The notes under the pieces are model-generated. The model was given only the letters and a program-made list of their open reading frames with translations. It had not been told where the DNA came from and did no database searches. From positions 1 through 64,000 of IMG/VR virus record IMGVR_UViG_3300007512_002757: 64,000 nucleotides of DNA. One strand, 5' to 3'. The translations under genes were made by a program, and so were the position numbers. Origin of the DNA: a virus. The stretch's first letter is position 1; every line of letters begins with the position of its first letter. Positions 6,557-63,923 of this stretch are shown piece after piece.

Positions 6557-8910
6557 TGTCTGAAGCTTTTGATAATCCAATTATAATGGAAATTCCTATG
6601 GAAATTCCTGAAAGCCTTTATCAACTAAGGGATGTAATGGCTTCTGCTGGATTTGAAATGTACATTGCTGGAGGAGCAGTAAGGGACACCATTCTTGGAA
6701 AGTCTCCAAAGGATTATGATATAGCAACAAACGCAACTCCGGAAGATGTCATTAGAATTTTAAGCCCGTACGTTAAGCGCATAGGGGTTCAGGGCGAAAA
6801 GTCATTCGCAGTAGCAAGGATGATAGCTTATGATGGAAACGAGTATGAATTTGCTCCATATCGAGTAGAGCGCGGAACCAGGATGGGTGGTGAGGCCACC
6901 CTTTCCACAAAAGAGAATCCGTTATCAATAAAAGATGACGCAATGCGTCGAGATCTCACCATAAATGCTTTGTTTTATAGAATTCCAACACGCAAAGAGA
7001 GGGAGGATGGAGTTGCGGGAGAGGTCGTTGACTATGTTGGTGGAATAGACGACATTAAGAATGAGGTTATAAGAACCGTTGGAGATCCTGATGAAAGATT
7101 CGGAGAAGATCGTTTAAGAATCCTTAGAGCCTTTAGATTTGCAGGAAGAATGGGCGGAGAGGTTGATGAAGAAACTGCTAATGCAATTAGAAGTAATAAT
7201 TCACTTACAGAGAATAGTGAAGCAGCGGTTTCTGATGAAAGAATTCAGGATGAAGTAAAAAAAGGAATTAAAACATCAAAGTCTCCATCTCATTATATTA
7301 ATATGTTAAAAGATTTTGATTTGTTTCCACAAATATTGCCAGGATTAAAAGTTTCTAAAGCAATATCTTCAAGCAGAAATGTTGCTGTTCAACTTGCTAC
7401 GATTCTTCAAGAAAACAATAGTAGCGATGTAGCTAATGTTTTGTTTCAAAAGAAATATGGAAATGATATAAAAGATTCTGTAAAATTTCTCTTAAATTTA
7501 ACTAAATTAAATGCCGAAAGTTTAATCGGACTAAAGAGAGAGTTGATACGAATGAAAAAAGCTTCAAAGACAATTATGAGCAACGAGGCAATAATGGACT
7601 TTGGAGGGGCTATAGGGCAGGACTTTAATAAGTTTATAAACTTTGCATCTGCCCCACCGGTTGTATCTGCGCGAGATCTTATAGCGGGAGGTATGAAGCC
7701 TGGGCCAGAGATGGGCGAAGCCATTAGGAGCGCTGAGGTTGATGCTTATTTTGAAAAAAATCCAGAGAATACTGAAGGAATATCTGAGGCCAGTTCTGAT
7801 ATAACAGAAAAATTGATTAAGCTTTCTTTAGAATTAAGCAAACTTGGAAAATTTTCTGAGACTAATTTTTTAAATAATCATATAAAAAAAGCGCATTCTT
7901 TGAATGGTGATAAAATAGAAAATCCACTAAATATACCTATTCCACCGCTTAGTGGAGAAGTGTATATTTTTGATATGGATGACACACTGTTCTGGACTCC
8001 TGAGTGGCACACTATAGTGGAGACCAACGAGGAGGGTGATGCAACCTCTGTAGACATGGACCTTCCAAATATGTTTCATAAGGCTATTTCTTTTGTGCAA
8101 AGAGCTAATGAAAATCATGTAGAATTAATCAAAAAAGATAAAAAGGGAAAAGAAATACAAGGGTTGGCAGACTCATATAGGCAAGAGGTGGGAAACCTTA
8201 GGCTTATAAAGAGGATTGTGGATTTACCTATGCTTGGAAAGGATAGGCAGGTAGTGTTTGTTCTTTCCGACGAAAGCGGAAGCCCAATAGGAATTCCGAT
8301 GTTGAAAAAATATTTTTCATCAAAAAATTTGAAAGCATTTGATTTAAGGGGCAAGTATGTTCCCGAGCAAGCGGTTGTAGCTGGAGACGCTGTGTTTTAT
8401 CAAAGCCCTAAAACATTGGGGACCATACCGAATGAAGAGATTTTAAACACATACAAGACTCATAGTGATAACGCCGTTATATTGACAGCAAGAGAAACAA
8501 GAGAAGGTATGGCAGAGGGTATAATGGATCGACTCACAAGCGTTGGCCTTAAGCTTCCTATATCTATATTTACAAAGCCAACCAATATTTCTAGTGGAAA
8601 ATATAAGGCGCATATAATTGGACAAATTGCACAGCAAGATTCTGTAAGTTCAATAAAATTTTATGACGATAATTTGAAATATATAAATGATGTAAATAAT
8701 ATACTAGAAAACGTTTATGGTCCAGATCTTCATTCAAAAGTAACTATTTATAGAGTAAGCATTAGCGCTAAACCCAAAGAATCGCTTCGAGTAAAGGCGT
8801 CGAATGATAAAGTGAGTATATTAAAAAAATTAATTACAGTAGCAAACGAGTTAGATGAGAGAGGCCTTATTGAAGAGGCAGATTATTTAGATAATATGGA
8901 GATAATATGA
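6556..8910 (+). CDS. CCA-adding/poly(A) polymerase-type nucleotidyltransferase fused to a HAD phosphatase, with two tags
   Basis: Residues 20-260 are a class II tRNA nucleotidyltransferase: 'GGAVRD' (39-44), the metal-binding 'DYDIATNATP' (53-62), 'RRDLTINAL' (131-139) and 'EDRLRILRAFRFAGRMG' (184-200). A tag copy follows at 416-448. Residues 468-735 are a HAD phosphatase with nucleophile Asp473 and Asp475 in 'IFDMDDTLFW', motif II Thr644 in 'VILTARE', and the acidic motif 'FYDDN' (702-706). A second tag forms the C-terminus (753-784). The HAD part resembles those of 'Swiss Army Knife' RNA-repair proteins. The gene overlaps the following 2H phosphoesterase gene by ATGA. Together they suggest repair of RNA ends, for example of cleaved tRNA. 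CCA addition itself is not proven by sequence. Confidence 0.8.
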   Translation: MSEAFDNPIIMEIPMEIPESLYQLRDVMASAGFEMYIAGGAVRDTILGKSPKDYDIATNATPEDVIRILSPYVKRIGVQGEKSFAVARMIAYDGNEYEFAPYRVERGTRMGGEATLSTKENPLSIKDDAMRRDLTINALFYRIPTRKEREDGVAGEVVDYVGGIDDIKNEVIRTVGDPDERFGEDRLRILRAFRFAGRMGGEVDEETANAIRSNNSLTENSEAAVSDERIQDEVKKGIKTSKSPSHYINMLKDFDLFPQILPGLKVSKAISSSRNVAVQLATILQENNSSDVANVLFQKKYGNDIKDSVKFLLNLTKLNAESLIGLKRELIRMKKASKTIMSNEAIMDFGGAIGQDFNKFINFASAPPVVSARDLIAGGMKPGPEMGEAIRSAEVDAYFEKNPENTEGISEASSDITEKLIKLSLELSKLGKFSETNFLNNHIKKAHSLNGDKIENPLNIPIPPLSGEVYIFDMDDTLFWTPEWHTIVETNEEGDATSVDMDLPNMFHKAISFVQRANENHVELIKKDKKGKEIQGLADSYRQEVGNLRLIKRIVDLPMLGKDRQVVFVLSDESGSPIGIPMLKKYFSSKNLKAFDLRGKYVPEQAVVAGDAVFYQSPKTLGTIPNEEILNTYKTHSDNAVILTARETREGMAEGIMDRLTSVGLKLPISIFTKPTNISSGKYKAHIIGQIAQQDSVSSIKFYDDNLKYINDVNNILENVYGPDLHSKVTIYRVSISAKPKESLRVKASNDKVSILKKLITVANELDERGLIEEADYLDNMEII

Positions 8911-9437
8911 TTAAAGCATTAGAGGAATTAAAAGATAAAATAGAAAAAGAAGGTGGCTCTGCATATTTAAAGTCTGTAGAAGAAATTATAAAATATGCAA
9001 AAAAGAAAAAGAAAGCCTTATATACTGCGGCATTTTTAACACCATCTGGTAAAGAAATGTTGGAAAATTGGTGGGGAACCGTAGTTCAGAAGGAGCTTCA
9101 TTCTAAGCATTTTATGCACCATATGACTATAAAGTTTAAACCATCGGAAGAAGAGGTTCTAGCTTTGCCAATAGATGGAAAGATTGTTAAGTTAAAAATT
9201 ATTGGATACAATGAAGATGATCGAGGCCAGGCCGTTATGGTTGCTGGGGTAGCCTCTTCAAACAGCATTCCTCATATAACAGTGTCAACCACAGAGGAAA
9301 CCAGCCCTGTTTATTCGAATGAATTACTTGGCGTGGGAATCAACGAAGTTGACGGAGTAGAGTTGGATGCGAGAATAGGGTTCTTTAATGGGAAAGAGGC
9401 CAGATACGATTTCGAAGGATCTATATATGAGGATTGA
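8907..9437 (+). CDS. 2H phosphoesterase-like protein (RNA cyclic phosphodiesterase/ligase family)
   Basis: A 176-residue protein with the paired HxT signatures of 2H phosphoesterases: His72-Met-Thr74 in 'HHMTIKF' and His123-Ile-Thr125 in 'PHITVST'. Members open 2',3'-cyclic phosphates on RNA or ADP-ribose products, and the domain occurs in fungal tRNA ligase. The first 36 residues (ALEELKDKIEKEGG, then YLKSVEEIIKYAKKK) look like a divergent tag. Its four-base overlap with the nucleotidyltransferase-HAD gene supports a shared RNA-repair role. The spacing of the motifs is compact, so assignment is by motif only. Confidence 0.6.
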   Translation: MIKALEELKDKIEKEGGSAYLKSVEEIIKYAKKKKKALYTAAFLTPSGKEMLENWWGTVVQKELHSKHFMHHMTIKFKPSEEEVLALPIDGKIVKLKIIGYNEDDRGQAVMVAGVASSNSIPHITVSTTEETSPVYSNELLGVGINEVDGVELDARIGFFNGKEARYDFEGSIYED

Positions 9438-9439
9438 TA

Positions 9440-21388: not shown

Positions 21389-22726
21389 ATGGATAAAGCT
21401 GCCATTTCAAAATTAAATATCAATGAGTTGATAGATCTGTCTAATAAGTTTGATCAAAAAGGAATGATTAGAGAGGCTGATGTCTGCGATAAGTTGGCAT
21501 ACCACTTTGATAAATTAGGAATGGCAAGAAGGATTCCGGAAGAACTAGCGAAGCTGAAAGAAGAGACTCAAGATCTGAAGGTAAATATTCCTGAAAAAAA
21601 GGATAAAGAGGCAAATTATACACAGCTTACAGAGTTAATAGGGGATAATCAAAATAACAGAATAACTATGGCGGCAGAAGAGTTGACTAGAATTCCAAAC
21701 TTTCCTGCGCAACAAAAGGGACCAAAACCTTCGGGCATTTGGTATGCATGCGGAAATGAGTGGATTAGCTGGCTGACTTATGAGATGCCACAATGGATTG
21801 GTGGTTATGTTTATTCTTTCAAGGTTGATGAAAGCAGAATGCTTATGATAACGAATGAGCAAGAGTTTGTCGCCTTTGAGAGAGAGTATTCGGTTCCAGA
21901 TAGTTCTTGGGGGAAGACTATTGATTGGGCAAAAGTTGCTATGAAATATTCTGGCATTGAGATCTGCCCTTATCAGTATAGCTTTAGGCACAGTAGTATG
22001 TGGTATTATGGTTGGGATGTGGCCTCCGGCTGTGTCTGGGAAGGCTCGGCAGTTCTTGAGGCTACATTGGTTGCGAAAAGAACAAAAGAAGTAGATGCAC
22101 CCTCGTGGGATGACGACGAAGAGGGTGAGGCTAATTGGGATTGGTATGGCCTCGGAGAAGGCGCTGCTGACTCCGGAAGCTCCAAAGATCCTGAGGAGAT
22201 TGCTGCAGAGGTTGACGAAAGAATAGGCGATGAAGTACAGCAGCTAAAAGATGATCTTGACCCAACGTCTGATGTTCAAGCTCGTCCCGGATCGCATCCA
22301 GAGGGAAGAATGGATGAAATGGTAAGTCAAATGGTAAGCCAAATAAGTTCTGACGATAAGCCTTGGGATAAGCCTTGGGCAGATAGGGGTGTTTCTTTAA
22401 ACACTATGACCGAAAAACCCTATCATGGTCGGGGGCAGAATCTTTTGGATGCAGAGCAATTGTCAAAAAGCAAAACGGCAAAGCGTATAAAAACCTTGGA
22501 TAATTTCAGAGGAGATGCTGCCCTTTATGAGTTAAGCGAACCATTGGATGGTCACACACACGTTGTAGTGTCAGCCAATGAGGTGCCGATGTCTGGTCCG
22601 GAAACATATATTTTTGGAGCAGATGAAAGTGGAGAAATAGAGGATTGGACAGAGCTGTCTGGATCAACGCCTGGAATTATGTGCCATAACTCGGCGCTGA
22701 AGAATGCTGGGTATCAGATTAGTTAG
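21389..22726 (+). CDS. Tagged protein with aromatic/Cys-rich domain
   Basis: The N-terminus carries a tag (INELIDLSNKFDQKG, MIREADVCDKL). Residues 110-235 are a compact domain with 'SGIWYACGNEWISWL', 'IDWAKVAMKYSGIEICPY' and 'WYYGWDVASGCVWEG'. Its layout vaguely recalls ADP-ribosyltransferase-type folds (GxWY..., later acidic segment), but I cannot assign it. An acidic, low-complexity linker (240-330) and a C-terminal beta-rich region follow. AAGGAG lies upstream of the ATG. Confidence 0.7.
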   Translation: MDKAAISKLNINELIDLSNKFDQKGMIREADVCDKLAYHFDKLGMARRIPEELAKLKEETQDLKVNIPEKKDKEANYTQLTELIGDNQNNRITMAAEELTRIPNFPAQQKGPKPSGIWYACGNEWISWLTYEMPQWIGGYVYSFKVDESRMLMITNEQEFVAFEREYSVPDSSWGKTIDWAKVAMKYSGIEICPYQYSFRHSSMWYYGWDVASGCVWEGSAVLEATLVAKRTKEVDAPSWDDDEEGEANWDWYGLGEGAADSGSSKDPEEIAAEVDERIGDEVQQLKDDLDPTSDVQARPGSHPEGRMDEMVSQMVSQISSDDKPWDKPWADRGVSLNTMTEKPYHGRGQNLLDAEQLSKSKTAKRIKTLDNFRGDAALYELSEPLDGHTHVVVSANEVPMSGPETYIFGADESGEIEDWTELSGSTPGIMCHNSALKNAGYQIS

Positions 22727-23586: not shown

Positions 23587-23808
23587 TTATGGATCCGGAT
23601 GTGTATGGGTTGATTCATCTAAAAGAGCAAGCTGTTTTTCGATAGCATTTACTCGTTCCCATAGTTTGCGTATATTAGACCGGGTTCCTCCGCCTTCTGG
23701 ATACGAGGTATTTAAAGCGGTTTTTATAATTGAATCTAAGAAATCAGCTTCTTTGTGAAAGCCCTTTTTGTCTAAATGATTTGCTAGTTTAATTAATTCA
23801 TTATTCAT
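23587..23808 (-). CDS. Tag plus short coiled coil
   Basis: A 73-residue protein that is mostly a canonical tag (NELIKLANHLDKKG, HKEADFLDSIIKTA) followed by a short heptad helix (IRKLWERVNAIEKQLALL). The near absence of other sequence suggests the tag folds or docks on its own and that the coiled coil oligomerises. Confidence 0.8.
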   Translation of the reverse strand: MNNELIKLANHLDKKGFHKEADFLDSIIKTALNTSYPEGGGTRSNIRKLWERVNAIEKQLALLDESTHTHPDP

Positions 23809-27249: not shown

Positions 27250-29814
27250 GTGCATGATCGGCTTTTTACATTAAAAAAGTTTCTTACAGAAAAGGGTTTT
27301 GAAAAAGAAGCTGAGATGATGCGGGCTATTAGGAATATTTCTGGCACCGGTGGCGGATCTACGGATATTCCTGATCCAGAAACGGACCCTGAGGCATATG
27401 CAGAGTTTTTTGGGTTCGATTTAGAGTGGGTTAAAAAGACTTTGCAAGATCAAAAAGCTGCAGAAGAAGCTGCGGCTGCTGCAGGCGGAGAGGCGGAGGC
27501 CTTGCAGAGAGCCGAAGAGGTGGCTCGCTCAGAGCCTTTGTCGGCAGAACCGCAAGCTGTCTCTTCTCCAGATCTTCCTCCGCCGGTGGATCAACTGGCG
27601 TCCATCAGATCTGGTTCTAGCACACTTCAGGTTGGAAGCAAAGATGTTGCTGGAAACACTCCTGTCTCAAAGATTCAAAGTCTTTTGGTAAAACATGGGT
27701 ATATTTCAGCAGGAAGATACGTAAATGGAAATTATGGAGAAGAAACAAAAAATGCTGTTATTCAGTTTCAGACAAACAATCAAATAGAGCCAACTGGCAT
27801 AGTTGATAAAAATACTTTAATAATGCTGGAAAGCATTGCTGCGGTGCCTGCAGGCCAAGGGGCAGCGACCCCGCCGGGCCAAGGCTCTGGAGCTATGCCT
27901 CCTCTGCCCTCTGATGCCATGCCTCCTCTGCCCTCTGATGCCATGCCTCCTCTGCCTGCCCCGGCGGGCACCGCTCAGGCATCAAGGGCTACAAATATAG
28001 GGTCTGCAAGTAGCATGGAAACATCAGAGGCTTTAATGAAAGAGATGGCAGATAAAGAAAGTTATCGTGGAAATGTTTATGATGATGCAACGGGAGAGCC
28101 GATTTCTTCATATGGGGAAGCTAAAGGTCGAGCAACAATTGGAATTGGACATTTGGTAAGAACCAGAGAGAAGCCTAGGTTTTCAAAGTATCTAAAAGGG
28201 CGAGGGGAGATGACAAGAGATCAGGCCTGGAGTCTTTATAAAGAGGATGTAAAAAAACATGAGTCTCCATGGAAAGGTCAGATAAAAGTTCCGATAACCC
28301 AAAGTATGTTTGATGCAATGTCATCTTTTGCATTTAATACCGGAAGGGGTGGTCCAAAAAAATATAATATATTAGGACCCCTTAATGAGGGTGATTATAT
28401 GGGGGCAGAAAAGGCTATTCGAAATGGCCCTCAAACTTCAACCGGATCAGATGGTAAAAGAAGAAAAATGCGCGGCCTTACAAAGAGAAGAAACAGAGAG
28501 GCTGATAGGTTTTTGCAAGACGGAATACCTTATGCTGGTCAGACGCCGGGAGTGGATATGCCTCAGCAGACAAGCGCTTTTGCAAGTATCGATAATAAAT
28601 TTTATAATTTAAATGAATATTTAAAGAAAAATGGTTTTACACAAGAAGCTTCTTTTTTAGAAGAGATTTTAAAATTAGCGACAACTAATTCGGATGATCA
28701 GGCAGGTTCAACCATGTCTATAGGGCCAGGGATAACCACCCCCGTTGATCCAGACGCTACAATCCCGGTGCAAACCAGGGTAGAGAGACGCAGATTTCCA
28801 AGCGAAGAGGTGTTAAAAAGAAATGGAGTGGAAATAATAAAGTATATAGCAGGGACAGAAGCAGAGCGACGAGGCGAAGGGGCCAGAACAGCAGAAGGTA
28901 ATATCTATGAGGTTCTGCATGACGGCAATAGAGCAATAGCGAAGGTGGTTACAAGCAGCAATATGGAGCCGGATATTTGGAAGAAGATTTCAGAAATTGA
29001 AGTTCCGGAAGAACAAAGAAAGCATTTGCCAAAAATTTATAAAATAGTTGAAGATATGTTTGACACTATAATTATAATGGAAGTCCTGGAACCTTTCGGA
29101 GGTCATATGGATTCTGTCTTGCGGACAAAGAGAAATAGGGAATCAGGAGATTTGTTTAAAAATGAAGAGTTTATTCATGATGCAATCTCTCGCTCTTTCA
29201 ATTCAGCCACCGAAACCTTAAGGAATACATCAAAGAATGAGGAAGAAGAAGATATATATAGATCTTTTGTTACAGAGCAGGAGGGTATAAAGAGAGAGCT
29301 GGAGAGGGCAATCCTTGTTAGGGATGTGCAAACAGATGGGGTATCTGCTTTTGTAAATAATAAATTACTAAATATTTCTAATTTATTTATGCTTGGTGAA
29401 AATGATTTCATTTCTCAAATTGCAGATGAAATTCAAAATAATATAAATTCATATTTCCAAGCTTCGGAAAGACCTATTCCAAAATATTATTCAACAGAAG
29501 GCGTAGACCAATCTATTGGAGCATTACAGGGTATGTTAGAAGATAATCCTCAGGGGTATAGCGCAGGTAGAAATCGCAGAAGATTAGAGGCATTAGAGAA
29601 GGAGAGAGAGCAAACTATTTACACAGAATCTCCTGAAGGATTCTTGTTTTCAGAAAAGTATATGCCAGAAACAGAAAGTTTATTTGCTCTTCTTCAAACA
29701 TTAAAAGATAATGGAATTAACTGGTCGGATGTGCATGCAAATAATTTAATGCAAAGGCCGGGTTCGCGAGAGCCGGTGATAATTGACGTTGGGCTGTATG
29801 AGTTGCATCAATAG
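27250..29814 (+). CDS. Two-tag fusion: peptidoglycan-binding domain, GH24 lysozyme and protein-kinase-like domain
   Basis: Residues 4-32 are a tag (KKFLTEKGFEKEAEMM). Residues 137-196 are PG_binding_1 ('KIQSLLVKHGY', 'VNGNYGEETKNAV'). A Pro-rich repeat linker follows. Residues 257-425 are a T4-type (GH24) lysozyme with likely catalytic Glu270, 'ATIGIGH' (295-301) and 'FDAMSSFAFNTG'. A second tag lies at 446-481. Residues 530-854 look like a kinase fold: 'EGNIYEVLHDGNRAIAKVV' (Lys565), hinge 'IIIMEVLEP', catalytic-loop-like Asp827-x4-Asn832 ('SDVHANN') and metal-binding Asp846 ('IIDVG'). The GTG start is the only one fitting the tag. A murein hydrolase joined to a kinase is unusual; the second tag sits exactly between the two enzymes. 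Confidence 0.8.
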   Translation: MHDRLFTLKKFLTEKGFEKEAEMMRAIRNISGTGGGSTDIPDPETDPEAYAEFFGFDLEWVKKTLQDQKAAEEAAAAAGGEAEALQRAEEVARSEPLSAEPQAVSSPDLPPPVDQLASIRSGSSTLQVGSKDVAGNTPVSKIQSLLVKHGYISAGRYVNGNYGEETKNAVIQFQTNNQIEPTGIVDKNTLIMLESIAAVPAGQGAATPPGQGSGAMPPLPSDAMPPLPSDAMPPLPAPAGTAQASRATNIGSASSMETSEALMKEMADKESYRGNVYDDATGEPISSYGEAKGRATIGIGHLVRTREKPRFSKYLKGRGEMTRDQAWSLYKEDVKKHESPWKGQIKVPITQSMFDAMSSFAFNTGRGGPKKYNILGPLNEGDYMGAEKAIRNGPQTSTGSDGKRRKMRGLTKRRNREADRFLQDGIPYAGQTPGVDMPQQTSAFASIDNKFYNLNEYLKKNGFTQEASFLEEILKLATTNSDDQAGSTMSIGPGITTPVDPDATIPVQTRVERRRFPSEEVLKRNGVEIIKYIAGTEAERRGEGARTAEGNIYEVLHDGNRAIAKVVTSSNMEPDIWKKISEIEVPEEQRKHLPKIYKIVEDMFDTIIIMEVLEPFGGHMDSVLRTKRNRESGDLFKNEEFIHDAISRSFNSATETLRNTSKNEEEEDIYRSFVTEQEGIKRELERAILVRDVQTDGVSAFVNNKLLNISNLFMLGENDFISQIADEIQNNINSYFQASERPIPKYYSTEGVDQSIGALQGMLEDNPQGYSAGRNRRRLEALEKEREQTIYTESPEGFLFSEKYMPETESLFALLQTLKDNGINWSDVHANNLMQRPGSREPVIIDVGLYELHQ
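27895..27957 (+). repeat. 24-base linker repeats
   Basis: Two perfect 24-base copies and a partial third, encoding MPPLPSDA, form the flexible linker between the peptidoglycan-binding and lysozyme domains. Confidence 0.85.
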
Positions 29815-32878: not shown

Positions 32879-32886
32879 GAGAAAAA

Positions 32887-34506: not shown

Positions 34507-34531
34507 ACAGCAACAAACATAGGGAGTTAAA

Positions 34532-37678: not shown

Positions 37679-38215
37679 ATGTTAGAAAAACTTATAAATT
37701 TAGCAAATGAATTAGACCAAAGAGGCTTGATCAAAGAAGCTGGAAAGGTTGATGATATTATGGCTACATTAACAAAGTTGGTTAATGGCCTGGAAGGCGT
37801 AAGTGGGGACGCTCCAGAGGAAGATGCTCCAGAAGAAGATGCTCCAGAAGAAGACGAGCAAGTAGAGTTTAATGGAGAAAGTACGGAGCATTTTGACATA
37901 TGTCCTGGAGCGGTTAAGGCTTTTAAAATGCTTAGAGAAGAAGTAAAGAATGACGGAGTAGATGAGGACTCTATAGATATAGCCTTGGAGGCTCTTGGGG
38001 AAACTGATGAACTACTTGGTTTGGAAAAGGAAATTCTTAAAGAAAAATCTGCAACACAAGATGAGTTGAAAAAAGCTCTTGAGCTTTCGCATAATATAGC
38101 ATATAAGGCTGGGGTTCTTTCGCAAAAATTAGATTCTGATCTTTCAGATGATTTTGGATTTTTAGGCATGCATGTAGAGGCTATCTCTGATCATGTTGAT
38201 AATAAAAAAGATTAA
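37679..38215 (+). CDS. Tagged acidic helical protein
   Basis: A 178-residue protein: tag (EKLINLANELDQRG, LIKEAGKVDDIM), then three DAPEE repeats and an acidic helical C-terminal domain (120 residues) without known family. It starts a series of four tagged genes on this strand. Confidence 0.75.
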   Translation: MLEKLINLANELDQRGLIKEAGKVDDIMATLTKLVNGLEGVSGDAPEEDAPEEDAPEEDEQVEFNGESTEHFDICPGAVKAFKMLREEVKNDGVDEDSIDIALEALGETDELLGLEKEILKEKSATQDELKKALELSHNIAYKAGVLSQKLDSDLSDDFGFLGMHVEAISDHVDNKKD

Positions 38216-38236: not shown

Positions 38237-38890
38237 ATGAATGCAAAAATAGAATTAATATGGTTGGCAGATAAACTTGACAGAGCAGGCATGACTGCAG
38301 AGGCAAATACTGTGGATATGATTATAAGCAAAACAGCAGAAGGTGAGGAGACTAAAATATTTCCAGATGAGCCAGACTCAGGTACGGAGCCAGACTCAGG
38401 TACGGAGCCAGATGATTTAACGGATAAAGGTGGAACATCTTCAGAAACAACTAGTGATATTGCAGCTATATTGGCAGCCATACAAGATATAGATGATTTG
38501 GGAGAGGTGGTTTTTCAGGCACTGCATCGGCCGGGTGCCGCTGCTGAGCCGCCCCTTGTTGGCATGGCAGGTCCGCAGCCGGTAATTGAAGATGAAGAAA
38601 TTCATGAAAAAGTTACATCAAATCTTCTCTCTATGCATCAAGGGCTAGACAGCCTAAAGGCTCTTGTGAACAACCTAGATCATTCTGGCCCTTGCCCACC
38701 ATGCCCTGATCCCGAACCTCTAGACCCTGAGGATCCAGAAGACCCAGAGGATGTTGGCGGACGATATAGTGGCCGAGGCGGAGTAAACGTAACGCAAACA
38801 TTGGAAAATATAGGAAATACTTCTGGAGAATTAACCGTAAATGCTTCTTACAAATATGTAAATCGATTTGAAGATCTTTTAGACGATTAA
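38237..38890 (+). CDS. Tagged acidic Pro-rich protein
   Basis: A 217-residue protein: tag (IELIWLADKLDRAG, MTAEANTVDMIISKTA), two 18-base repeats (PDSGTE), a helical part, then a 'PCPPCPDPEP' segment and DPED repeats. It overlaps the next start as TAATG. Function unknown; low-complexity linkers suggest an extended virion protein. Confidence 0.7.
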   Translation: MNAKIELIWLADKLDRAGMTAEANTVDMIISKTAEGEETKIFPDEPDSGTEPDSGTEPDDLTDKGGTSSETTSDIAAILAAIQDIDDLGEVVFQALHRPGAAAEPPLVGMAGPQPVIEDEEIHEKVTSNLLSMHQGLDSLKALVNNLDHSGPCPPCPDPEPLDPEDPEDPEDVGGRYSGRGGVNVTQTLENIGNTSGELTVNASYKYVNRFEDLLDD

Positions 38891-39903
38891 TGGTGCAATA
38901 TGAGTGCAAAATGTATGATAAATTAGAAAAAATTAATGCACTAGAAGATAACTTGGAGGATTTTGCAGAGGATTTTGCAGAGGATTTTTTAGAAGACTTT
39001 GTAGAAGATGAGGCAAGGGATATAACCGACAAGTTTGACTTAAAAGATGAAGAGGCTCCCAATCTTGAAGTAAGAGTTAATGAAGCTTCCTGCCCAAAGG
39101 CTAGGTTGACAAAGCTTAGTTCTTTTCTTAAAAAGAATAATTTTAGAAAAGAAAGCTATGAAGTTCTAAAGCTAGCAAATATTTCAATCTTAGATGATGG
39201 AAATGAATTAAAAGAAAAGCTAAAAAGAGAGGCTTTAAACACTCTTGCCGAAGAATATTCTGAAAACTTTGTTGATTGGAATTACGATACAGACTTTAGA
39301 GAGTCTATCTTTGAGCTTGGTTTTTCCGATCTAGAAAAGCAATTTGCGCAATTAATGGATGACGGATTAGCTTCTTTGGAGGACTTAAATATGGATGAAG
39401 CTTCAGAGGTTTTGTGGGCAGCATCGGGATTAACTCCCGAAGGCCATCATGATTTTGATAATAATCTTATTTCTTTGCAGGATTATCAAAATGAAGATTT
39501 AAATCGTCAAACAGAGCGTCCAGGAAGAGGTGAGGTATTAGAGGTAAGGGATGAAATCGCTAAAAAGTTTTCTGAATGGGTTGAGTACCGGGAACCAAAT
39601 CTTGAGTCATTAGAAGATTTGGAGTTTGAAGATTTATTAAATAAAATAAAAACAGACCTTCCAAACTTAAGTGGTTCAATGAGCACTATCTATGAAGAGT
39701 GGGAAGAGTTTTTAGACTCTATTCCAGATGATCAAAGACAGCTTTTTGAAGACGAAAGCTTTTCCGTTCCAGAAGAGGTGCCCTTATACGGCGATACCTC
39801 CTCTTATGAAAAAGAAGAGCCAGTAGGAACCTCTGGTGATCTAGAAAGGCTTGAGGAAAAACGCTATGGTCAAGGCTATGAAGATTTGCAAGATTATATC
39901 TAG
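38890..39903 (+). CDS. Acidic helical protein with internal tag
   Basis: A 337-residue, strongly acidic protein. A leading repeat of (E)DFAEDF type precedes a tag at about residues 71-100 (LTKLSSFLKKNNFRKESYEV). The remainder is helical and acidic (DLEDLEFEDLLNK), with no recognised family. Its start overlaps the previous stop by one base. Confidence 0.7.
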   Translation: MVQYECKMYDKLEKINALEDNLEDFAEDFAEDFLEDFVEDEARDITDKFDLKDEEAPNLEVRVNEASCPKARLTKLSSFLKKNNFRKESYEVLKLANISILDDGNELKEKLKREALNTLAEEYSENFVDWNYDTDFRESIFELGFSDLEKQFAQLMDDGLASLEDLNMDEASEVLWAASGLTPEGHHDFDNNLISLQDYQNEDLNRQTERPGRGEVLEVRDEIAKKFSEWVEYREPNLESLEDLEFEDLLNKIKTDLPNLSGSMSTIYEEWEEFLDSIPDDQRQLFEDESFSVPEEVPLYGDTSSYEKEEPVGTSGDLERLEEKRYGQGYEDLQDYI

Positions 39904-44389: not shown

Positions 44390-44812
44390 TCATTTTTTAT
44401 TCTTTGGCTTTAAGGTTTTGATCATAGAGCCTAGATCTTTCGCCTCTTGCTTATGTTTTCTTTTTTTCAAAGTTTTAGACAAACGCTTTAAGCGACGTTC
44501 TACTTTTTCCAAGTAGTCACCTTCGTAATCATGATTTCTTCTAAAGAAATCAAATTCTGGCTCGCCCTTTTCATTTTTACTTTTTAGATTAAATTTGCCA
44601 GGAGCAAAGTGAGCTTGTCTTTTGAAATACTTTGGATCATTTTCTATTTTACAAATCATTGTAGATAATTCACTTTCCGACATATCGTCGAGATGCTTCT
44701 TCTCGGTCAGCTTGTGCGATGCTTCCATAAAATTATCATCATCGTCCCATACTATATCTGCTTTATCCGCAGCCTTGTGAACATCTTTGGGTGTAAGTTT
44801 TTCTTTTGACAT
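44390..44812 (-). CDS. Basic protein with C-terminal tag
   Basis: A 140-residue protein. Residues 105-136 are a C-terminal tag copy (RLKRLSKTLKKRKHKQEAKD, LGSMIKTL) that is much more basic than most. The N-terminal 100 residues are charged and unassigned. It is the first gene of the minus-strand operon leading to the cytochrome. Confidence 0.65.
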   Translation of the reverse strand: MSKEKLTPKDVHKAADKADIVWDDDDNFMEASHKLTEKKHLDDMSESELSTMICKIENDPKYFKRQAHFAPGKFNLKSKNEKGEPEFDFFRRNHDYEGDYLEKVERRLKRLSKTLKKRKHKQEAKDLGSMIKTLKPKNKK

Positions 44813-47368: not shown

Positions 47369-47899
47369 TTATTTATTTAATATAATTTTATCAAGCTCAT
47401 CAGCTTCTTTCGCAAGACCACGATTGTCTAATTCATTTGCAATCTTGGCTAATTCATTAATAAAAGATGCTTCGGCTAATGGAATTGTTGGAGGAAACAT
47501 TCCAAACTCTGGATCTCCGGGCTTTCGTGCGCCCCATCCAAGATACTCTGAAGGTTGGCCGAATTCTTGCTTGATGTCTTGATATACATCATCCGGCAAG
47601 TCTATTTCCGCTAAGGCTCCTTGCCCCAGGTATTGGTCAGTTAGTATATTCATTTCGTTCTTGAACTTGTCTAAGTTGGCAACAACTTCTGCAACTTCTT
47701 GCAATTCTTCGTCAGACATTTCAGAGAAATTTCTTTCACGAATTATTTTTAATGACTCTTCAATTTTGTTAATGGTATCTTGAAGGTGAGTCAAATCCTC
47801 TTCGGTCTCTTCTCTATCTAGCTGCTCAAGAAGAGCCTCCATAGCGTCTCTGTCTTCGGGAGACTTTTTGTCAAACATACTACCTGCTGTTTTAATCAT
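47369..47899 (-). CDS. Helical protein with C-terminal tag
   Basis: A 176-residue protein: acidic coiled coil (50-100), a Gly/Pro-rich segment, and a C-terminal canonical tag (INELAKIANELDNRG, LAKEADELDKIILNK). I chose ATG 47899, preceded by AGGG and two bases beyond the stop of the upstream mini-gene; longer in-frame starts exist. It shows that the tag works at a C-terminus. Confidence 0.75.
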   Translation of the reverse strand: MIKTAGSMFDKKSPEDRDAMEALLEQLDREETEEDLTHLQDTINKIEESLKIIRERNFSEMSDEELQEVAEVVANLDKFKNEMNILTDQYLGQGALAEIDLPDDVYQDIKQEFGQPSEYLGWGARKPGDPEFGMFPPTIPLAEASFINELAKIANELDNRGLAKEADELDKIILNK

Positions 47900-47900
47900 T

Positions 47901-49229: not shown

Positions 49230-49593
49230 CTTCTAAGACCTCATAAGATGAATCTCTATAATCTGATGTTTCAATTATTACAGAATCCTCCAAAGCTTCA
49301 AGTCTATATGGACACATGGATGGAACAGATAATATCTGGTCTGGTTCAAGAATTCCTTGGTGCATATAATTTATATCTGTTGTTTTTTCATCCCCATATA
49401 TAACAGCGATTTTGCCAGAGAGAAGATAGAAGGCCTCACTTTTTACTCTGTATCTCTTTAGAGATGTTCTATGACCTTTGTTAATCTTTATAATCTTTCC
49501 ATGCATATAGCCAGCGCCAGACCACGAGCGCTCATTGCCCCATGGTTTTTCTTCAGTCTTTATGTCGCTTATCCAAGCTACCTTTCTGCTCAT
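49213..49593 (-). CDS. Cupin-fold protein, sugar-phosphate isomerase type
   Basis: A 126-residue protein resembling the C-terminal cupin of mannose-6-phosphate isomerases: 'KPWGNERSW', 'KIIKINKGHRTSLKRYRVKSEAFYLLSG', 'EPDQILSVP', 'HRLEAL'-like 'PYRLEAL'. The usual metal-binding His pair is reduced (HRTSLKRY rather than HxSLQxH), so it may bind rather than isomerise sugars. Similar genes are common in large phages. Confidence 0.65.
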   Translation of the reverse strand: MSRKVAWISDIKTEEKPWGNERSWSGAGYMHGKIIKINKGHRTSLKRYRVKSEAFYLLSGKIAVIYGDEKTTDINYMHQGILEPDQILSVPSMCPYRLEALEDSVIIETSDYRDSSYEVLEDDYDR

Positions 49594-57660: not shown

Positions 57661-58449
57661 ATGCTTAATAAATTAATAAAAGTTGCAAATACTCTGGATG
57701 AGAAAGGGCATCTAAAGCTCGCGGACAGATTGGATGCTGTGATCTTAAAGTTTGCCGAAGAAATGGGAGACTCAACCTTTGAAAAGGTTGGAGATGTGAC
57801 GCTTGTAAATCGAACCGATGGCAAGGTTGTATTGGTTGGAAAAGAAGTTCTTGATCATATCGGAACGCACCAAGAGCTTGGCATTGGATCTATCTTCTCC
57901 GGAAACATAAGTCCTCAACAAATTCTTGATTTCTTGTCCACGGCTGATTTAAAATCTGGCGGCAGTCCATTTTATTCCGCAAAGTTTCCAGGAGGCGGAT
58001 ACGAGCTTGTTAAACCTTATGAACATGCTATGGAGTTGCCCGATGCCGAAAGGCAAGATGGCCCTCCTCATAAGCGAGAGTTTAGCCAAGAGGCGGGTGA
58101 TTGGGTGGACATTCCCGTGGCCAAGGTTGCAACGTCGGCAAGTATTGAAGATTTTTCAACGGATGAGACAACGGTAATTGTTCCTAACTATGACCCCAAG
58201 TATGCTGATGAAGCAACGAAAGCTTTGGTCGAAGAGCGTCTTGCGGATGTGCGCGATGATGGCGATCTATATGCTCTTGCTTCGGCCTTTCCCGGTGGTA
58301 TGACCATAGAGGGGCAGGAGGTGCCCAAGTCGTCTCAATGGGGCGGCACGGAGAGTCCTGTGTGGGCCGTGATTCTTCCAAATCAGGGAGCTTCAAGCGC
58401 CGAAGAAGAAGCGGAAGAACCGGAAGAAGAGATACCTACTAATTTTTAA
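57661..58449 (+). CDS. Tagged protein (262 residues)
   Basis: Residues 2-33 are a tag (NKLIKVANTLDEKG, HLKLADRLDAVILKFA), with the EAD core altered to LAD. The rest is a mixed alpha/beta domain with a long acidic C-terminus (EEEAEEPEEE). AAGGAGAAAATAA precedes the ATG. No family is recognised. It starts a run of seven tagged genes on the same strand. Confidence 0.75.
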   Translation: MLNKLIKVANTLDEKGHLKLADRLDAVILKFAEEMGDSTFEKVGDVTLVNRTDGKVVLVGKEVLDHIGTHQELGIGSIFSGNISPQQILDFLSTADLKSGGSPFYSAKFPGGGYELVKPYEHAMELPDAERQDGPPHKREFSQEAGDWVDIPVAKVATSASIEDFSTDETTVIVPNYDPKYADEATKALVEERLADVRDDGDLYALASAFPGGMTIEGQEVPKSSQWGGTESPVWAVILPNQGASSAEEEAEEPEEEIPTNF

Positions 58450-58479
58450 AAACAAAGTGGGATTATTATAGAGAATCAA

Positions 58480-58950
58480 ATGATTAATGAACTTATAAAA
58501 TTGGCGGACTTTTTGGATAGCAGAGGCTTGTGCAAAGAGGCTGATTATTTGGATGACATGCTTAAAAAGCACGCCGGCATGTCAGATGAGCAACAGAGTT
58601 TTCTTGAATTAATAGAATATTTCGTTGGTGAAAATGTTATTCCTAAGCTTAAAAGGAATATAATAAAAGGCCATATTGTACCTGAGGGTGCAGGTGGAAA
58701 CATATCTTACAAAGAAAAAGACTTGGGAGCATCCTTAATTACTCTTCAAGAAACAAAAGCTGCTTTTAATAGCGCAAAAGATGATTATAATCCACCGCTG
58801 ACAGATGATGACATAGGGTATTGGCTGTCTGATGCCGGGAGGCTTCATGGCGGTGCAGAGGTTGAGCCATTTATTGCAAATCTTAGAACCAGCTTCGGAT
58901 TATTGGCCGCAGCAAACACTGACTCGGCAGGAGGGGTCGCAAATGCTTAA
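58480..58950 (+). CDS. Tagged protein (156 residues)
   Basis: Canonical tag (INELIKLADFLDSRG, LCKEADYLDDMLKK) followed by a helical domain of about 120 residues (FLELIEYFVGENVIPKL...). Its last eight bases overlap the next gene, which is the common spacing in this cluster. Confidence 0.75.
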   Translation: MINELIKLADFLDSRGLCKEADYLDDMLKKHAGMSDEQQSFLELIEYFVGENVIPKLKRNIIKGHIVPEGAGGNISYKEKDLGASLITLQETKAAFNSAKDDYNPPLTDDDIGYWLSDAGRLHGGAEVEPFIANLRTSFGLLAAANTDSAGGVANA

Positions 58951-59527
58951 TGAACTTATAAAACTAGCAAATGAATTGGACAAGAAAGGCTTGAGAAAAG
59001 AAGCTGACTATCTTGATTCATTATTGAGAAAGACAGCGGGGGCCAGGGTGAGCTTCCCCGTAGAAAAAAAGCATCCAAACCCAAAGGTTGTGGACCTGGG
59101 GAATGCCAAACTTGATTCTCCCATGTCTATCTTTAATGTTTTTGGCTCCGTTTTCAAAAACGCTCGGCCATTGGGCGCAGCACACTTTGGGGTAGATGAG
59201 GACAAAATAAAAGTAGAGCTTCCGCAAGCTTTGTATGATGTAAAATATAAGGGAAGAGCATCGCCTTTGGAGTCAACAATAATGTTTACAGATACACAAG
59301 GAAATTCCAAACCATGGTCTGACCCAATGTGGGATAGGATTGTCGGAAAATCATCTAAGAAATACAGAGGAGCGGACGGTCGGTGGCTCGATGGACTGCC
59401 TTATTTTGCCTCCCAGGAAGGTCTAATTGTGTCAGTTTCTGGAGTTAAGGCAAAGGTGTGGCCCAAGGAAGAGACTGGTCATCCATCGTGGACTGATCCA
59501 AACTGGGGGCCTGAGCAGAATGATTAA
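58943..59527 (+). CDS. Tagged protein (194 residues)
   Basis: ATG 58943 has AGGAGG nine bases upstream; longer in-frame readings are artefacts because the tag should be N-terminal. The tag (NELIKLANELDKKG, LRKEADYLDSLLRK) is encoded by DNA 87/88 identical to that at 59875. The body is beta-rich with 'TDTQGNSKPWSDPMW' and 'HPSWTDPNWG'. No family recognised. Confidence 0.78.
   Translation: MLNELIKLANELDKKGLRKEADYLDSLLRKTAGARVSFPVEKKHPNPKVVDLGNAKLDSPMSIFNVFGSVFKNARPLGAAHFGVDEDKIKVELPQALYDVKYKGRASPLESTIMFTDTQGNSKPWSDPMWDRIVGKSSKKYRGADGRWLDGLPYFASQEGLIVSVSGVKAKVWPKEETGHPSWTDPNWGPEQND
58953..59040 (+). repeat. 88-base direct repeat, copy A
   Basis: Encodes most of a tag. It matches copy B at 59875-59962 at 87 of 88 bases (the single difference is A/G before GAAAGACAGCGGG). 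Confidence 0.95.
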
Positions 59528-59855
59528 CGAATTAATAAAGCTAGCAACACATTTGGATAGGAAGGGGCTTCATAGAGAGGCCAATTATATTGATGCTGTG
59601 ATTAAGAAAACGGCTAGGACATTGGTTGATGATATTACCACAAGTGATCAATGCCCAGGAGAGGATCCGTGTCCAAAAGCAAAGAGGATTGGCACTTTGA
59701 TGTCAACTCCTTATGCAAAGCCTCCCAATTACAAGTTTACTTCGTCTGATGGAAGCTATGAAAATTTTGAAGGTCCAAAGAATCTTATTGGCACCGACAC
59801 CACAGCTCGCGGGGGCGGTGATTACTCAAATCTTAAGATTATTAAATATAGATAA
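59520..59855 (+). CDS. Tagged protein (111 residues)
   Basis: ATG 59520 overlaps the previous gene by eight bases. Tag (INELIKLATHLDRKG, LHREANYIDAVIKK) then a short body with 'CPGEDPCPKAK' and Gly/Asn-rich C-terminus. Function unknown. Confidence 0.75.
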   Translation: MINELIKLATHLDRKGLHREANYIDAVIKKTARTLVDDITTSDQCPGEDPCPKAKRIGTLMSTPYAKPPNYKFTSSDGSYENFEGPKNLIGTDTTARGGGDYSNLKIIKYR

Positions 59856-59864
59856 GGTGAACTA

Positions 59865-60470
59865 ATGATTAAACAACTTATAAAACTAGCAAATGAATTG
59901 GACAAGAAAGGCTTGAGAAAAGAAGCTGACTATCTTGATTCATTATTGGGAAAGACAGCGGGAAGAGACGAGGGGATGGAGCATGAAGAACACGCTAAGT
60001 CTTTGGAAGCTCCCGGAGCAGAGGCTGGCGAAGAAATGCATAACTTCTATGCCCGAGAGAACGCAAAGATGGCCGATGCTCGAAAAGTGGCGGGATGGAT
60101 TGTCGGCGGAACTCCCGTATTTGGCCAAGACGCAGAAACGGACATTGACGAACTAACGGACATGTTAAGTGCCGATGAACATACGGCGACGGTCAAAGCT
60201 GTTTTAGATTTCTTCTCTGGAAAAAAAGAACTAGTGTTGGAGAAAGGCTCTCCTCCTGATGCAGGTGCAGAAAAAGAAGCAGAATATGATGACCTTGACC
60301 CCTATAAGGCACAAGGAGACCTCAAGCAACAAGAGGCTGAGGCTAGAGCCCGAGAGGCCATGGCGCAAACTGGGGCGACGATAAAAGAGCTTGAGAGAAC
60401 AATAGGTGGGTCAAAGAGAGAGCGATCAACACACCAGACTGTTGACTTAGGGGATCTCTTGGAGAGCTAA
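59865..60470 (+). CDS. Tagged acidic helical protein (201 residues)
   Basis: Tag (KQLIKLANELDKKG, LRKEADYLDSLLGK) followed by a highly charged helical domain (YDDLDPYKAQGDLKQQEAEA). AAGGTGAACTA precedes the ATG, and its last base overlaps the next start (TAATG). Confidence 0.75.
   Translation: MIKQLIKLANELDKKGLRKEADYLDSLLGKTAGRDEGMEHEEHAKSLEAPGAEAGEEMHNFYARENAKMADARKVAGWIVGGTPVFGQDAETDIDELTDMLSADEHTATVKAVLDFFSGKKELVLEKGSPPDAGAEKEAEYDDLDPYKAQGDLKQQEAEARAREAMAQTGATIKELERTIGGSKRERSTHQTVDLGDLLES
59875..59962 (+). repeat. 88-base direct repeat, copy B
   Basis: Second copy of the repeat at 58953-59040, in the same reading frame relative to the start of its gene. Recombination between copies would delete 922 bases and fuse the two genes in frame. 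Confidence 0.95.
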
Positions 60471-61504
60471 TGTTAAGCAGGCTGATAAAGTTGGCTGATT
60501 TTTTAGATAATAAAAATTTGATTATCGAAGCTAATTGTTTAGATGAAATAATTAAAAAATATTCTGAAAAAATGAGTCTACCAGCAGCCGGAGCTTACTC
60601 TGGCAACTGGGAAGATACAGAGGTTTCCTTTAGTGGTTCTGATTTGAATGTCACTCAGGAAGCCCAAGGTTTCGCGCTAATAATGGATAAGCTATCAGAG
60701 TTGTTGGGATTTTCAGAACCTATAGTAACAAGTGGGTTAAGACCTCCCCTTAGACAGGTCCAGGCCATGCTTGGGCTGTGGAAAAAGAATGGAGGACCAG
60801 ACGGTGTTGCGAATGGTCTTTTGGGAACTGAAAATACAGGAAGCAAATATATAGCAAATCTTTACTCCAACTGTGCAAGCTGTCATGCTAGTGCTGGATC
60901 TATCGCACAAGACTTGATTTCTGTATGGGAAGAATATGCGCAACCTCCGGAGCATCGCTATGCTATCAAACCAGAGGGGATGGAGATTTCTGCAAAGATA
61001 ATAGAAGATGCAGGCGGTATATCTTCTCATCAGGATGGGGAAGCTATAGACTATGGCATTGTAAGCAATAGTGATGAAGAAATATCTAGAATGCTACAAT
61101 ATATTATAAAGAATAATTTGGTCAGATTAGATCCAATTGACGAAAGGAGAATGGAGCTGTCCGAGGAAGAAAGGGCTAAGGCAGGGCCTCATTGGCATAT
61201 CACCGTATTGGGAGTTACCTCTGCTGGGAAGGAGTTCTTATCGACACCCAACTCAGAGCTTAAAGCGCCAGATGAATTAAGTACTTTAAATGAGGCTTTG
61301 GGAGATAGGGAGAACCGACCTCTAACCACTGAGGAGATTGCAACGCTGTTTGAAGAGCATGAAGATTCTTCTTCTTCGTTTAAGCTTGATCCAGACAGGC
61401 TCATTCATATGACTAATTATAATCTAAACGAAGAAGAAGCCGCAATTGTGGATAAGTCCAAGCAATCGACTAATATTTCAGAAGAAGGTACATTGGTAGG
61501 CTAA
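60470..61504 (+). CDS. Tagged M15-like murein peptidase (344 residues)
   Basis: Residues 2-32 are a tag (SRLIKLADFLDNKNLIIEAN). Residues 80-250 resemble a D,D-/L,D-carboxypeptidase-type M15 enzyme: 'VTSGLRPPLRQ', the zinc motif 'SSHQDGEAIDYG' (His187, Asp194) and 'GPHWHITV' (His241, His243). The C-terminal 90 residues are acidic and unassigned. This is the third murein hydrolase here and the clearest enzyme carrying an N-terminal tag. Confidence 0.78.
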   Translation: MLSRLIKLADFLDNKNLIIEANCLDEIIKKYSEKMSLPAAGAYSGNWEDTEVSFSGSDLNVTQEAQGFALIMDKLSELLGFSEPIVTSGLRPPLRQVQAMLGLWKKNGGPDGVANGLLGTENTGSKYIANLYSNCASCHASAGSIAQDLISVWEEYAQPPEHRYAIKPEGMEISAKIIEDAGGISSHQDGEAIDYGIVSNSDEEISRMLQYIIKNNLVRLDPIDERRMELSEEERAKAGPHWHITVLGVTSAGKEFLSTPNSELKAPDELSTLNEALGDRENRPLTTEEIATLFEEHEDSSSSFKLDPDRLIHMTNYNLNEEEAAIVDKSKQSTNISEEGTLVG

Positions 61505-61506
61505 AG

Positions 61507-61734
61507 ATGATAAGTGAACTAATTAAACTTGCAGACTTCTTAGACAGCAACGGCTTGCAGGTCGAGGCTGATTATTTGGATGTTATAATTAAAAAGATAT
61601 CTCATAGTCTTGAAAGAGATGAATCAGATTGCGAGCAAAGCCTTGGTGATGAGCTATATTATTTTAAAAATCTGTCTGAAATGCTTGAAGATACAGAGCA
61701 GGAAAATGAAACCCATGATTTGGTCGATACGTGA
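61507..61734 (+). CDS. Tag with short acidic tail (75 residues)
   Basis: Canonical tag (SELIKLADFLDSNG, LQVEADYLDVIIKK) plus an acidic helical tail of 40 residues. It starts two bases after the M15-like gene and has no other domain. With the genes at 23587 and 45840 it shows the tag can be nearly the whole product. Confidence 0.75.
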   Translation: MISELIKLADFLDSNGLQVEADYLDVIIKKISHSLERDESDCEQSLGDELYYFKNLSEMLEDTEQENETHDLVDT

Positions 61735-61747
61735 GCGGACCAAGAGT

Positions 61748-62626: not shown

Positions 62627-62652
62627 AAAAGCAAGGCCGAAGCCTTGCTTTT
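62627..62652. terminator. Strong bidirectional intrinsic terminator
   Basis: AAAAGCAAGGC-CGAA-GCCTTGCTTTT: an 11-pair stem with a tetraloop and T-tract on each strand, between convergent genes ending at 62626 and 62683. Confidence 0.92.
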
Positions 62653-62682
62653 AAAGTATCAAAATAACAATGATTATTATCG

Positions 62683-63093: not shown

Positions 63094-63186
63094 ATTACGG
63101 CTCCTTTGTATCGACAGTCTTCATGACCATCTTGTAAGTTTTTGAAAATATTAATATAACATCAAACTGTGTAAGGTTAGAAGAAT

Positions 63187-63462
63187 ATGCGAAAAAAAAG
63201 ACTAAAAAAAAGAAAAGATAGTATAAAAACCCTTGATTTACATGGGATGGACTATGATCAAGCGGAGACTGCTGTAACTAATTTTGTTTTATTGGAAAAC
63301 TTCCCCATTCAGATTATTACAGGCAACAGTGCTGGCATGAAAGATCTTGTTTTTGGCATCCTAAAGGAGCATGGCTTCTATTATTATTTTAAGGATTGGT
63401 ACAATCTTGGATGCTTAATTATCATAGAAAGGCTGGAAGGAAATAGTGGCCTAAAGTGTTAA
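63187..63462 (+). CDS. Stand-alone Smr domain protein
   Basis: A 91-residue protein with a basic N-terminus and the Smr (MutS2 C-terminal) signatures 'LDLHGMDYDQA' and 'IITGNSAGMKDL'. Smr domains nick or cut DNA or RNA; stand-alone forms occur in bacteria. It overlaps the following tagged gene by seven bases. Confidence 0.8.
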   Translation: MRKKRLKKRKDSIKTLDLHGMDYDQAETAVTNFVLLENFPIQIITGNSAGMKDLVFGILKEHGFYYYFKDWYNLGCLIIIERLEGNSGLKC

Positions 63463-63923
63463 AGGAATTAATTAAAATAGCAAACGAACTGGACAGCAGA
63501 GGTCTTCTGAAAGAAGCGGATCTTTTGGATTCCCTTGTAAAGCTTTCGACAGAACTGGATAGTCCAGAAGGCTTTGGCGAATTAGTTGACCTTGATGAAT
63601 ATAGAGAAAAGAAGAAAGATCGATCAGAAAGGCGTAGAACTCCAGAGGAATACAGAAGTTATCTTGCAGAAAATTGGCCAGAAATACAAAAGGCTATAGA
63701 CGAGTTAGACAAAGAGCCGCCTGGAGATATGAACTTTCATATAGTCGTTTTAGATGATGAGGAAACATATTCTGGCGAAGCATCCGTGGTAAAGGTTAGT
63801 CCAGAACAGATGGAAGAAATAGAGGAAGGCCGAAAGGTTTACGATGTTGTTCCTCCTGATCATCAAAAGCCCAGCGCAAGATGGCAGGATATATGGAGCC
63901 TTATAAACCCCGAAGATGTTTAA
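63456..63923 (+). CDS. Tagged protein (155 residues)
   Basis: Starts at GTG. Canonical tag (KELIKIANELDSRG, LLKEADLLDSLVK) followed by a charged body with 'FHIVVLDDEETYSG'. It overlaps the end of the Smr gene. Function unknown. Confidence 0.7.
   Translation: MLKELIKIANELDSRGLLKEADLLDSLVKLSTELDSPEGFGELVDLDEYREKKKDRSERRRTPEEYRSYLAENWPEIQKAIDELDKEPPGDMNFHIVVLDDEETYSGEASVVKVSPEQMEEIEEGRKVYDVVPPDHQKPSARWQDIWSLINPEDV

Follow-up and report, generated by a model that had tools for sequence, protein, structure and literature searches.

The stretch of viral DNA analysed here (the window; 64,000 bases, corresponding to bases 1–64,000 of the 67,671-base IMG/VR virus record IMGVR_UViG_3300007512_002757) encodes a tag of about 33 residues that recurs on otherwise unrelated reading frames of both strands and that, judged from sequence comparison and fold prediction, is an undescribed helical hairpin under purifying selection. 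The proteins carrying it very probably share a common partner or destination, and we tentatively interpret the tag, with a probability of roughly 0.4, as a docking module that gathers its clients for co-packaging with the phage genome, most likely in the forming head. The window is identical, in reverse orientation and over 64,000 of 64,000 bases, to part of the IMG/VR contig G001 (223,402 bases), which encodes a DnaB-like helicase, a ribonucleotide reductase, PhoH and a serine-kinase-like protein, as well as a tail- or baseplate-like cluster at 158–222 kb, judged by eye from gene sizes and order. The related contig G002 (316,664 bases) has terminase, portal and capsid genes and shares gene clusters with 114 of the 283 predicted genes of G001; its major capsid protein aligns over 86% of its length with that of Bacillus phage G, at 51% identity.

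Sequence, fold and movement of the tag

The search profile was started from six copies matching the exact pattern, extended to 16 copies in the window and finally rebuilt from relatives, eight close tags used as scan queries having located the tag in 12 viral contigs (19 loci). Across the main sample of 12 related viral contigs (1,695 predicted proteins) it detected 105 copies in 97 proteins at E<0.01, or 106 in 98 at E<0.05, with 0 copies at E<0.01 in each of the reversed and shuffled protein controls. Within the window, 18 copies (E<0.01) are found in 16 frames between 7801 and 63554, or 19 in 17 frames when a marginal one (E 0.038) is included, and four further copies lie just beyond the window end in the same record. 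The recurrence of a two-part motif, LIKLAxxLDxKG followed by LxKEADxLDxIIKK, on unrelated frames, as proposed in the original prediction, is therefore well founded. Its larger count (at least 22 frames and about 24 copies) is not, since it included N-terminal look-alikes that are individually inseparable from noise, at 14846 (5.1 bits), 51295 (1.9 bits), 39912 (2.4 bits) and, on the minus strand, 48126 (3.4 bits); 18 reversed N-termini score at least 2 bits. When scoring was confined to the 45 N-terminal residues of every protein, 100 reached 4 bits, compared with three reversed sequences and eight mid-protein segments, some of the latter being true internal tags. Among the carriers originally named, the pyrophosphatase-like (14846) and zinc-finger (51295) proteins are thus left with suggestive N-termini, and of the giant proteins, that of 1185 residues (39912) has a weak look-alike and that of 1450 residues (16995–21347) gives no profile match at E<0.05.

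The consensus of the tag is approximately M-x-K-E-L-I-K-L-A-N-x-L-D-x-K-G-L-x-K-E-A-D-Y-L-D-x-I-I-K-K-A, in which L5, A9, L12, D13, G16, E20, A21 and D25 are at least 90% conserved over 29 copies. An internal 12-residue repeat is discernible, with six of 15 positions identical at a shift of 12 and at most three at any other shift between 8 and 16. Fold prediction, a step suggested along with the original prediction, returned the helical hairpin: AlphaFold2, run with a window copy and 28 other copies, placed helices at residues 2–14 and 18–31 with a mean predicted local distance difference test score (pLDDT) of 91.1. The first tag of a whole carrier from a relative was again modelled as two helices (pLDDT about 83–84; 71.5 for the whole model, with a predicted template modelling score, pTM, of 0.34). 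The peptide itself is likely to be what is maintained: over 193 pairs of similar tags, any pairs with related bodies included, the median synonymous (pS) and nonsynonymous (pN) differences are 0.64 and 0.18, pN being below pS in 192 pairs and in 42 of 43 pairs taken within genomes. In line with the earlier statement that no described domain could be matched, nothing in Pfam, PHROGs or NCBIfam exceeded the curated cut-off in the tag region of the scanned carriers, the best PHROG reaching E 0.073. Sub-threshold matches there to DUF1902 (E 0.039 and 0.21) and Protein_K (E 0.14) are regarded as chance, as is the best hit of a PDB profile search with the tag, to a Gag protein (E 0.15). Six tag peptides did not occur in the literature texts searched.

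The position of the tag within its carriers is not fixed. The 106 copies at E<0.05 comprise 76 N-terminal, 26 internal and four C-terminal ones, some of the internal tags being N-terminal in a shorter frame whose start was set too early (two in the window, for example); up to three profile copies occur per protein, one frame having three. After masking of the tags, 95 carriers (E<0.05, one duplicate contig left out) fell into 72 body families, 61 of them singletons (BLASTP, E 1e-3). Accessory proteins are tagged more often than core proteins (80 of 1,031 versus 15 of 603), and tagged genes tend to be neighbours: seven are consecutive at 57661–61734 of the window, adjacent tagged pairs number 11 in G001 against 1.94 expected, and runs exceed chance (p<0.02) in G001, G002, G005, G007 and G008, but not in the remaining contigs of the 12. 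No common element was seen by eye upstream of 19 tagged G001 genes, many of which are closely packed. A 33-codon cassette with sharp edges has been copied between two genes of this run: the tag DNA at 58943 and 59865 is identical at 86 of 90 bases over codons 1–30, and identity drops to about one third before the start codon and past codon 33; BLASTP between the bodies of the two proteins gives nothing below E 1.0. Such sharp edges, together with a pS far above pN, indicate a tag that spreads as a coding cassette and is preserved for the peptide it encodes.

Outside the main sample, a set was chosen independently of the tag from the best 80 of 324 terminase relatives; among its 29 contigs longer than 30 kb, 21 have a tag match (E<=0.01; three of these are weak, at 0.001–0.006) and eight have none. 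Five control giant phages whose capsid or kinase genes are related have no tag (E<=1). A tblastn search of 50,697 phage records with one composed consensus tag, a short query of limited sensitivity, found nothing at E<=10, and none of 122 pattern matches in 84,980 prokaryote genomes was confirmed by a method that reaches close relatives only.

A conserved tagged protein near the terminase gene

A conserved protein family (DQHGIFQHF...) is encoded about 7 kb before the terminase and portal genes, which in G008 occupy 96296–98068 and 98075–99760. Its domain of about 145 residues ends in LQSSMM or LQTDIM. Among 55 loci, some of which are near copies, the protein is tagged in 28, directly behind the conserved domain in 27 and at the N-terminus in one; it bears one to three tags, and at least two in 17 of these loci. 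In three further loci a tag begins the following gene. The profile sees no tag in the other 24, of which 15 end within about 10 residues of where the tag would begin and two (L245 and L246) have a tag that appears degenerate by eye. Many members contain a 55-residue module between tags, which elsewhere in the sequences searched was found only in the tagged window protein 60470–61504. When the conserved protein was modelled (pTM 0.34), a fold search with the model gave nothing at E<=0.001.

The state of this protein is associated with the use of the tag elsewhere in the same contig. Where the protein is tagged or followed by a gene that starts with a tag, 16 of 18 contigs hold other strong tags (E<=1e-6), against three of 13 where it is neither (Fisher 3.2e-4); the densities are 2.79 and 0.32 per 100 kb, in a comparison that ignores kinship and in which contigs are fragments. 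Thinning of near copies gave 13/13 versus 3/9 (p 0.0011); removal of the six contigs of the 31 that had been picked by their tags gave 11/13 versus 2/12 (p 0.0010), or 9/9 versus 2/8 after thinning (p 0.0023).

A tagged gene also recurs between a core gene (285–357 residues) and the terminase gene, with one gene intervening, in G002, G003, G004, G007, G008 and G009, and, in G006, a tagged gene comes after this core gene where the contig ends. The gene run before the terminase encodes a CCA-type nucleotidyltransferase in eight relatives, one of them a near copy. A profile comparison of 159 core families present in at least three contigs was used to look for hidden tags; ranking behind families with tagged members, the best untagged families, encoded near the terminase and portal genes, reached low probabilities of 36%, 7% and 6%, and no hidden tag is claimed. 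As for maturation sites, an AEI motif lies near the N-termini of some proteins encoded after the terminase; overall, [SRT]AEI occurs 38 times against 25.7 expected, a weak enrichment to which one repeat protein contributes seven, and AEI was not retained as a candidate. Three G008 genes of this region (98075, 101299 and 104725; L090–L091) have [SR]AEI about 20 residues from their start, possibly a maturation site.

Carrier proteins and other features of the window

The domains recognised in carriers are CCA nucleotidyltransferase (PF01743), lysozyme with PG_binding_1, ArdC_N, GDSL with PG_binding_1, PilZ and DUF5591; OmpA (in a frame with a marginal tag), LysM and GYF_2 are below the cut-off, and HAD-like, M15-like peptidase, kinase-like and HExxH zincin-like parts were assigned by eye. 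Several proteins highlighted in the original prediction are indeed tagged (Table 1). The nucleotidyltransferase fusion and the lysozyme protein each have two copies, the HAD part of the former being recognised by eye. The putative M15-like peptidase (60470–61504) is likewise tagged; its M15 likeness is visual, as no Pfam or NCBIfam family matches it and its best match among PDB sequences has an E of 1.2. The HExxH family (L060:6611-8356:-, L087:12229-13152:+ and L196:251-814:+) has its tag behind the motif and may be a processing peptidase.

Table 1. Tag copies and the second shared module in the window
Feature	Position	Strand	Frame and remarks
Tag, internal	7801..7896	+	Frame 6556-8910, separating the nucleotidyltransferase part from the HAD-like one (by eye); profile E 1.5e-13 / 4e-6
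Tag, C-terminal end	8818..8898	+	Frame 6556-8910 (CCA nucleotidyltransferase, PF01743); profile
Tag, N-terminal	21416..21514	+	Frame 21389-22726 (ArdC_N match); profile
Tag, N-terminal	23716..23808	-	73-residue frame 23587-23808; profile
Tag, N-terminal	27253..27342	+	Frame 27250-29814 (PG_binding_1 and phage lysozyme); profile
Second tag, internal	28588..28686	+	Frame 27250-29814, behind lysozyme part; profile
Tag, N-terminal	37679..37777	+	Frame 37679-38215; profile
Tag, N-terminal	38246..38341	+	Frame 38237-38890; profile
Marginal partial tag, internal	39103..39153	+	Frame 38890-39903; profile E 0.014 / 0.038
Divergent tag near C-terminus	44417..44494	-	Frame 44390-44812, residues 107-132; E 6.3e-6
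Tag, C-terminal	47378..47464	-	Frame 47369-47965; profile
Tag, N-terminal	57661..57759	+	First of seven consecutive tagged genes; profile
Tag, N-terminal	58480..58578	+	Copy folded alone, predicted helical hairpin; profile
Tag, N-terminal	58943..59041	+	DNA cassette near-identical to 59865-59963; profile
Tag, N-terminal	59520..59615	+	Gene read from ATG 59520; profile
Tag, N-terminal	59865..59963	+	DNA cassette near-identical to 58943-59041; profile
Tag, N-terminal	60470..60568	+	Frame 60470-61504; profile
Second shared module, 55 residues	61304..61468	+	Residues 279-333 of frame 60470-61504; E 2e-20
Tag, N-terminal	61507..61605	+	75-residue frame, last of seven-gene run; profile
Tag, N-terminal	63459..63554	+	Frame 63456-63923; profile

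Other features of the window and its relatives were noted. Unlinked gene pairs at 48126–49593 (minus strand) of the window and at 146146–148043 of G001 each encode a protein with a weakly tag-like N-terminus and a protein of about 125 residues from a single family (cupin-like by eye), which suggests a duplicated cassette. Imperfect repeats of SSASVAEILTVLAESAEVQ lie inside one small protein at 31470–31850, and several genes at 32006–35590 and 44928–45680 look by eye like those of lipoproteins (signal peptide and Cys), some being thioredoxin-like, which is unusual in a phage. No tRNA genes were found in the window. Three adjacent genes at 130966–135464 of G001, encoding a serine-kinase-like protein also present in Thermus phages, a protein with a 'sporulation protein' PHROG match and one of unknown function, resemble the bacterial PrkA/SpoVR set. 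G002 has an adenylosuccinate-synthetase-like gene (L047:7826-8842:-, phrog_1211), which may mean that the DNA of the clade contains a modified purine, and encodes a GroEL-like protein (L045:4671-6314:-, one PHROG match), a family with two copies in each of G002, G007, G008 and G009.

Proposed role and relation to known systems

A hairpin that is folded, movable, independent of position, under selection and attached to unrelated proteins most plausibly serves for docking, and the part of the original prediction that proposed a common destination or partner is well supported. We propose that a clade of giant tailed phages has grafted this two-helix hairpin onto mostly accessory proteins, which would thereby collect at a single site while the virus assembles, most likely the forming head, and then be packaged, carried into the next cell and injected. 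The conserved protein encoded near the terminase, or its partner, may be the receptor or nucleus of this gathering; it would belong to the head, and the place would be the head interior. The tagged protein encoded before the terminase points to the head as a likely place, and the domains of several carriers would suit proteins that are delivered into or across the cell wall during infection. A broader version, in which the hairpin, at either end of or inside a protein, is recognised by or paired with the multi-tag protein encoded before the terminase, and an interchangeable set of at least 20 effectors and wall and repair enzymes is loaded into the capsid with no cleaved leader adjacent to the tag, is possible yet doubtful.

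A number of observations weigh against the proposed loading of the head. The head as destination, the less secure part of the original capsid-loading hypothesis, is drawn from context (the conserved protein, with its link to other tags and the module it shares with a window protein, the tagged gene before the terminase and the carrier domains). None of the terminase, portal or capsid genes of the clade clustered with G001 proteins, so that the head context of the window is taken from relatives. In G002 the conserved protein lies about 2.6 kb from a primase gene on one side and about 7.6 kb from the terminase on the other; with the primase the nearer, its status as a head protein is an inference. 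No homologue of it was found in the 50,697 phage records. Its association with other tags, computed from fragments and regardless of kinship, has exceptions in both directions: G016 and G022 combine a tagged version with no other strong tag, and G004, G044 and G046 have other tags with an untagged version, that of G046 having a tag degenerate by eye. The majority of scanned carriers have no recognised domain. Residue counts behind 102 tags revealed no conserved cleavage-site pattern, a more distant site being possible. Tagged bodies are acidic (median charge per residue -0.074, compared with -0.012 for untagged accessory proteins), whereas the internal proteins of T4 are mostly basic.

The same features may be accommodated by other roles. 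The tag could mediate homotypic or shared-partner assembly inside the cell, in a replication compartment, a condensate or a chaperonin complex, its carriers remaining unpackaged. The location of the conserved protein between the primase gene and the terminase makes a role in replication or assembly possible, and proteins with several tags (three on one frame, two to three on the conserved protein), the 12-residue internal repeat and the GroEL-like proteins of the clade would suit such an arrangement, which we consider rather unlikely: lysozyme and peptidoglycan-binding carriers fit a particle better than a cytoplasmic body, and the replication cluster of G001 yielded no tag. Those carriers could instead point to a dockerin-like complex for wall degradation or lysis, the hairpin docking enzymes on a tail-tip or periplasmic scaffold. 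Among the 10 places with PG_binding_1 in 11 contigs, three belong to tagged proteins, one of which reaches no better than E 5e-4, and three more to proteins whose N-terminal hairpin is degenerate, as judged by score in two cases and by eye and homology in the third; sub-threshold LysM and OmpA matches occur in a tagged and a marginally tagged frame, respectively. Four of the 10 places are untagged, however, other carrier domains (nucleotidyltransferase, ArdC_N, PilZ) have no relation to the wall and no tag was found in the tail-like cluster of G001, which renders this role improbable.

The sharp-edged cassette copy and the runs of adjacent tagged genes would also be compatible with a mobile coding cassette, or a handle for recombination, that helps to exchange gene bodies and whose peptide is nearly idle. 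This is the least probable of the roles considered, being already disfavoured by the strong purifying selection on the peptide, by the existence of C-terminal and internal copies and by a mean DNA identity among copies within genomes (about 0.53) that is low for a handle. Scarcely more probable is a degron or a stability or chaperone-recognition tag, which a short, mostly terminal element of mainly accessory proteins might resemble, were it not for the internal copies, the presence on the conserved protein and the predicted folded hairpin.

Proteomics is usually needed to learn which proteins a giant phage brings into its host. If it is the carried proteins that bear the tag, sequence would reveal what an entire uncultivated clade injects, and if the head is indeed the destination, a position-independent hairpin would be a handy loader of foreign proteins into large capsids. 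Should the destination lie elsewhere, the tag still marks out a considerable new group of phage proteins as linked to one another, many of them unannotated.

The tag resembles a single helical hairpin of the tetratricopeptide repeat (TPR) type, a helix-turn-helix of similar length. TPRs are 34-residue repeats, usually in arrays; the tag has its own conserved acidic positions and does not form tandem arrays, with at most three copies per protein, and the scanned carriers gave no Pfam TPR match at the thresholds used. One carrier, with ArdC_N, and one carrier family, HExxH zincin-like by eye, recall polyvalent proteins. Both domains are typical of that class, although ArdC-N is described as rare in its phage type (PMC5512222), a further point against the proposed head loading and injection. 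Polyvalent proteins, which are delivered with DNA, are defined by several effector domains per chain rather than by a small common tag; many tagged carriers are short, a few are multidomain (6556–8910 and 27250–29814) and most of those scanned have no recognised domain.

A close likeness is to the capsid-targeting sequence of the T4 internal proteins and Alt, likewise one short segment on unrelated, variable accessory proteins, as the 72 body families among 95 carriers illustrate here. T4 Ip1-3 are reported to have only the N-terminal leader in common (PMC12373910), and this leader, of about 10–20 residues, is N-terminal and is cut off by the prohead protease (PMC5694885, PMC7411985). The present tag, on the other hand, has 33 residues, is predicted to fold as a hairpin, is also internal (26 copies) and C-terminal (four, against 76 N-terminal), and has no conserved residue pattern of a cleavage site just behind it in 102 copies, which again speaks against head loading of this kind; for its placement and the lack of an adjacent cleavage site, it is not classed as a T4-type member. 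In the giant phage SPN3US many ejected proteins are packed, and propeptides, several of them longer than 100 residues and cleaved, are thought to target them; they are not described there as one shared hairpin module, unlike the tag (PMC5694885). For phage P1, the 30 N-terminal residues of DarB suffice to package a reporter in the capsid, and the Dar N-termini are reported to have no sequence in common (PMC9024508), whereas the sequence of the tag is common to dozens of proteins here.

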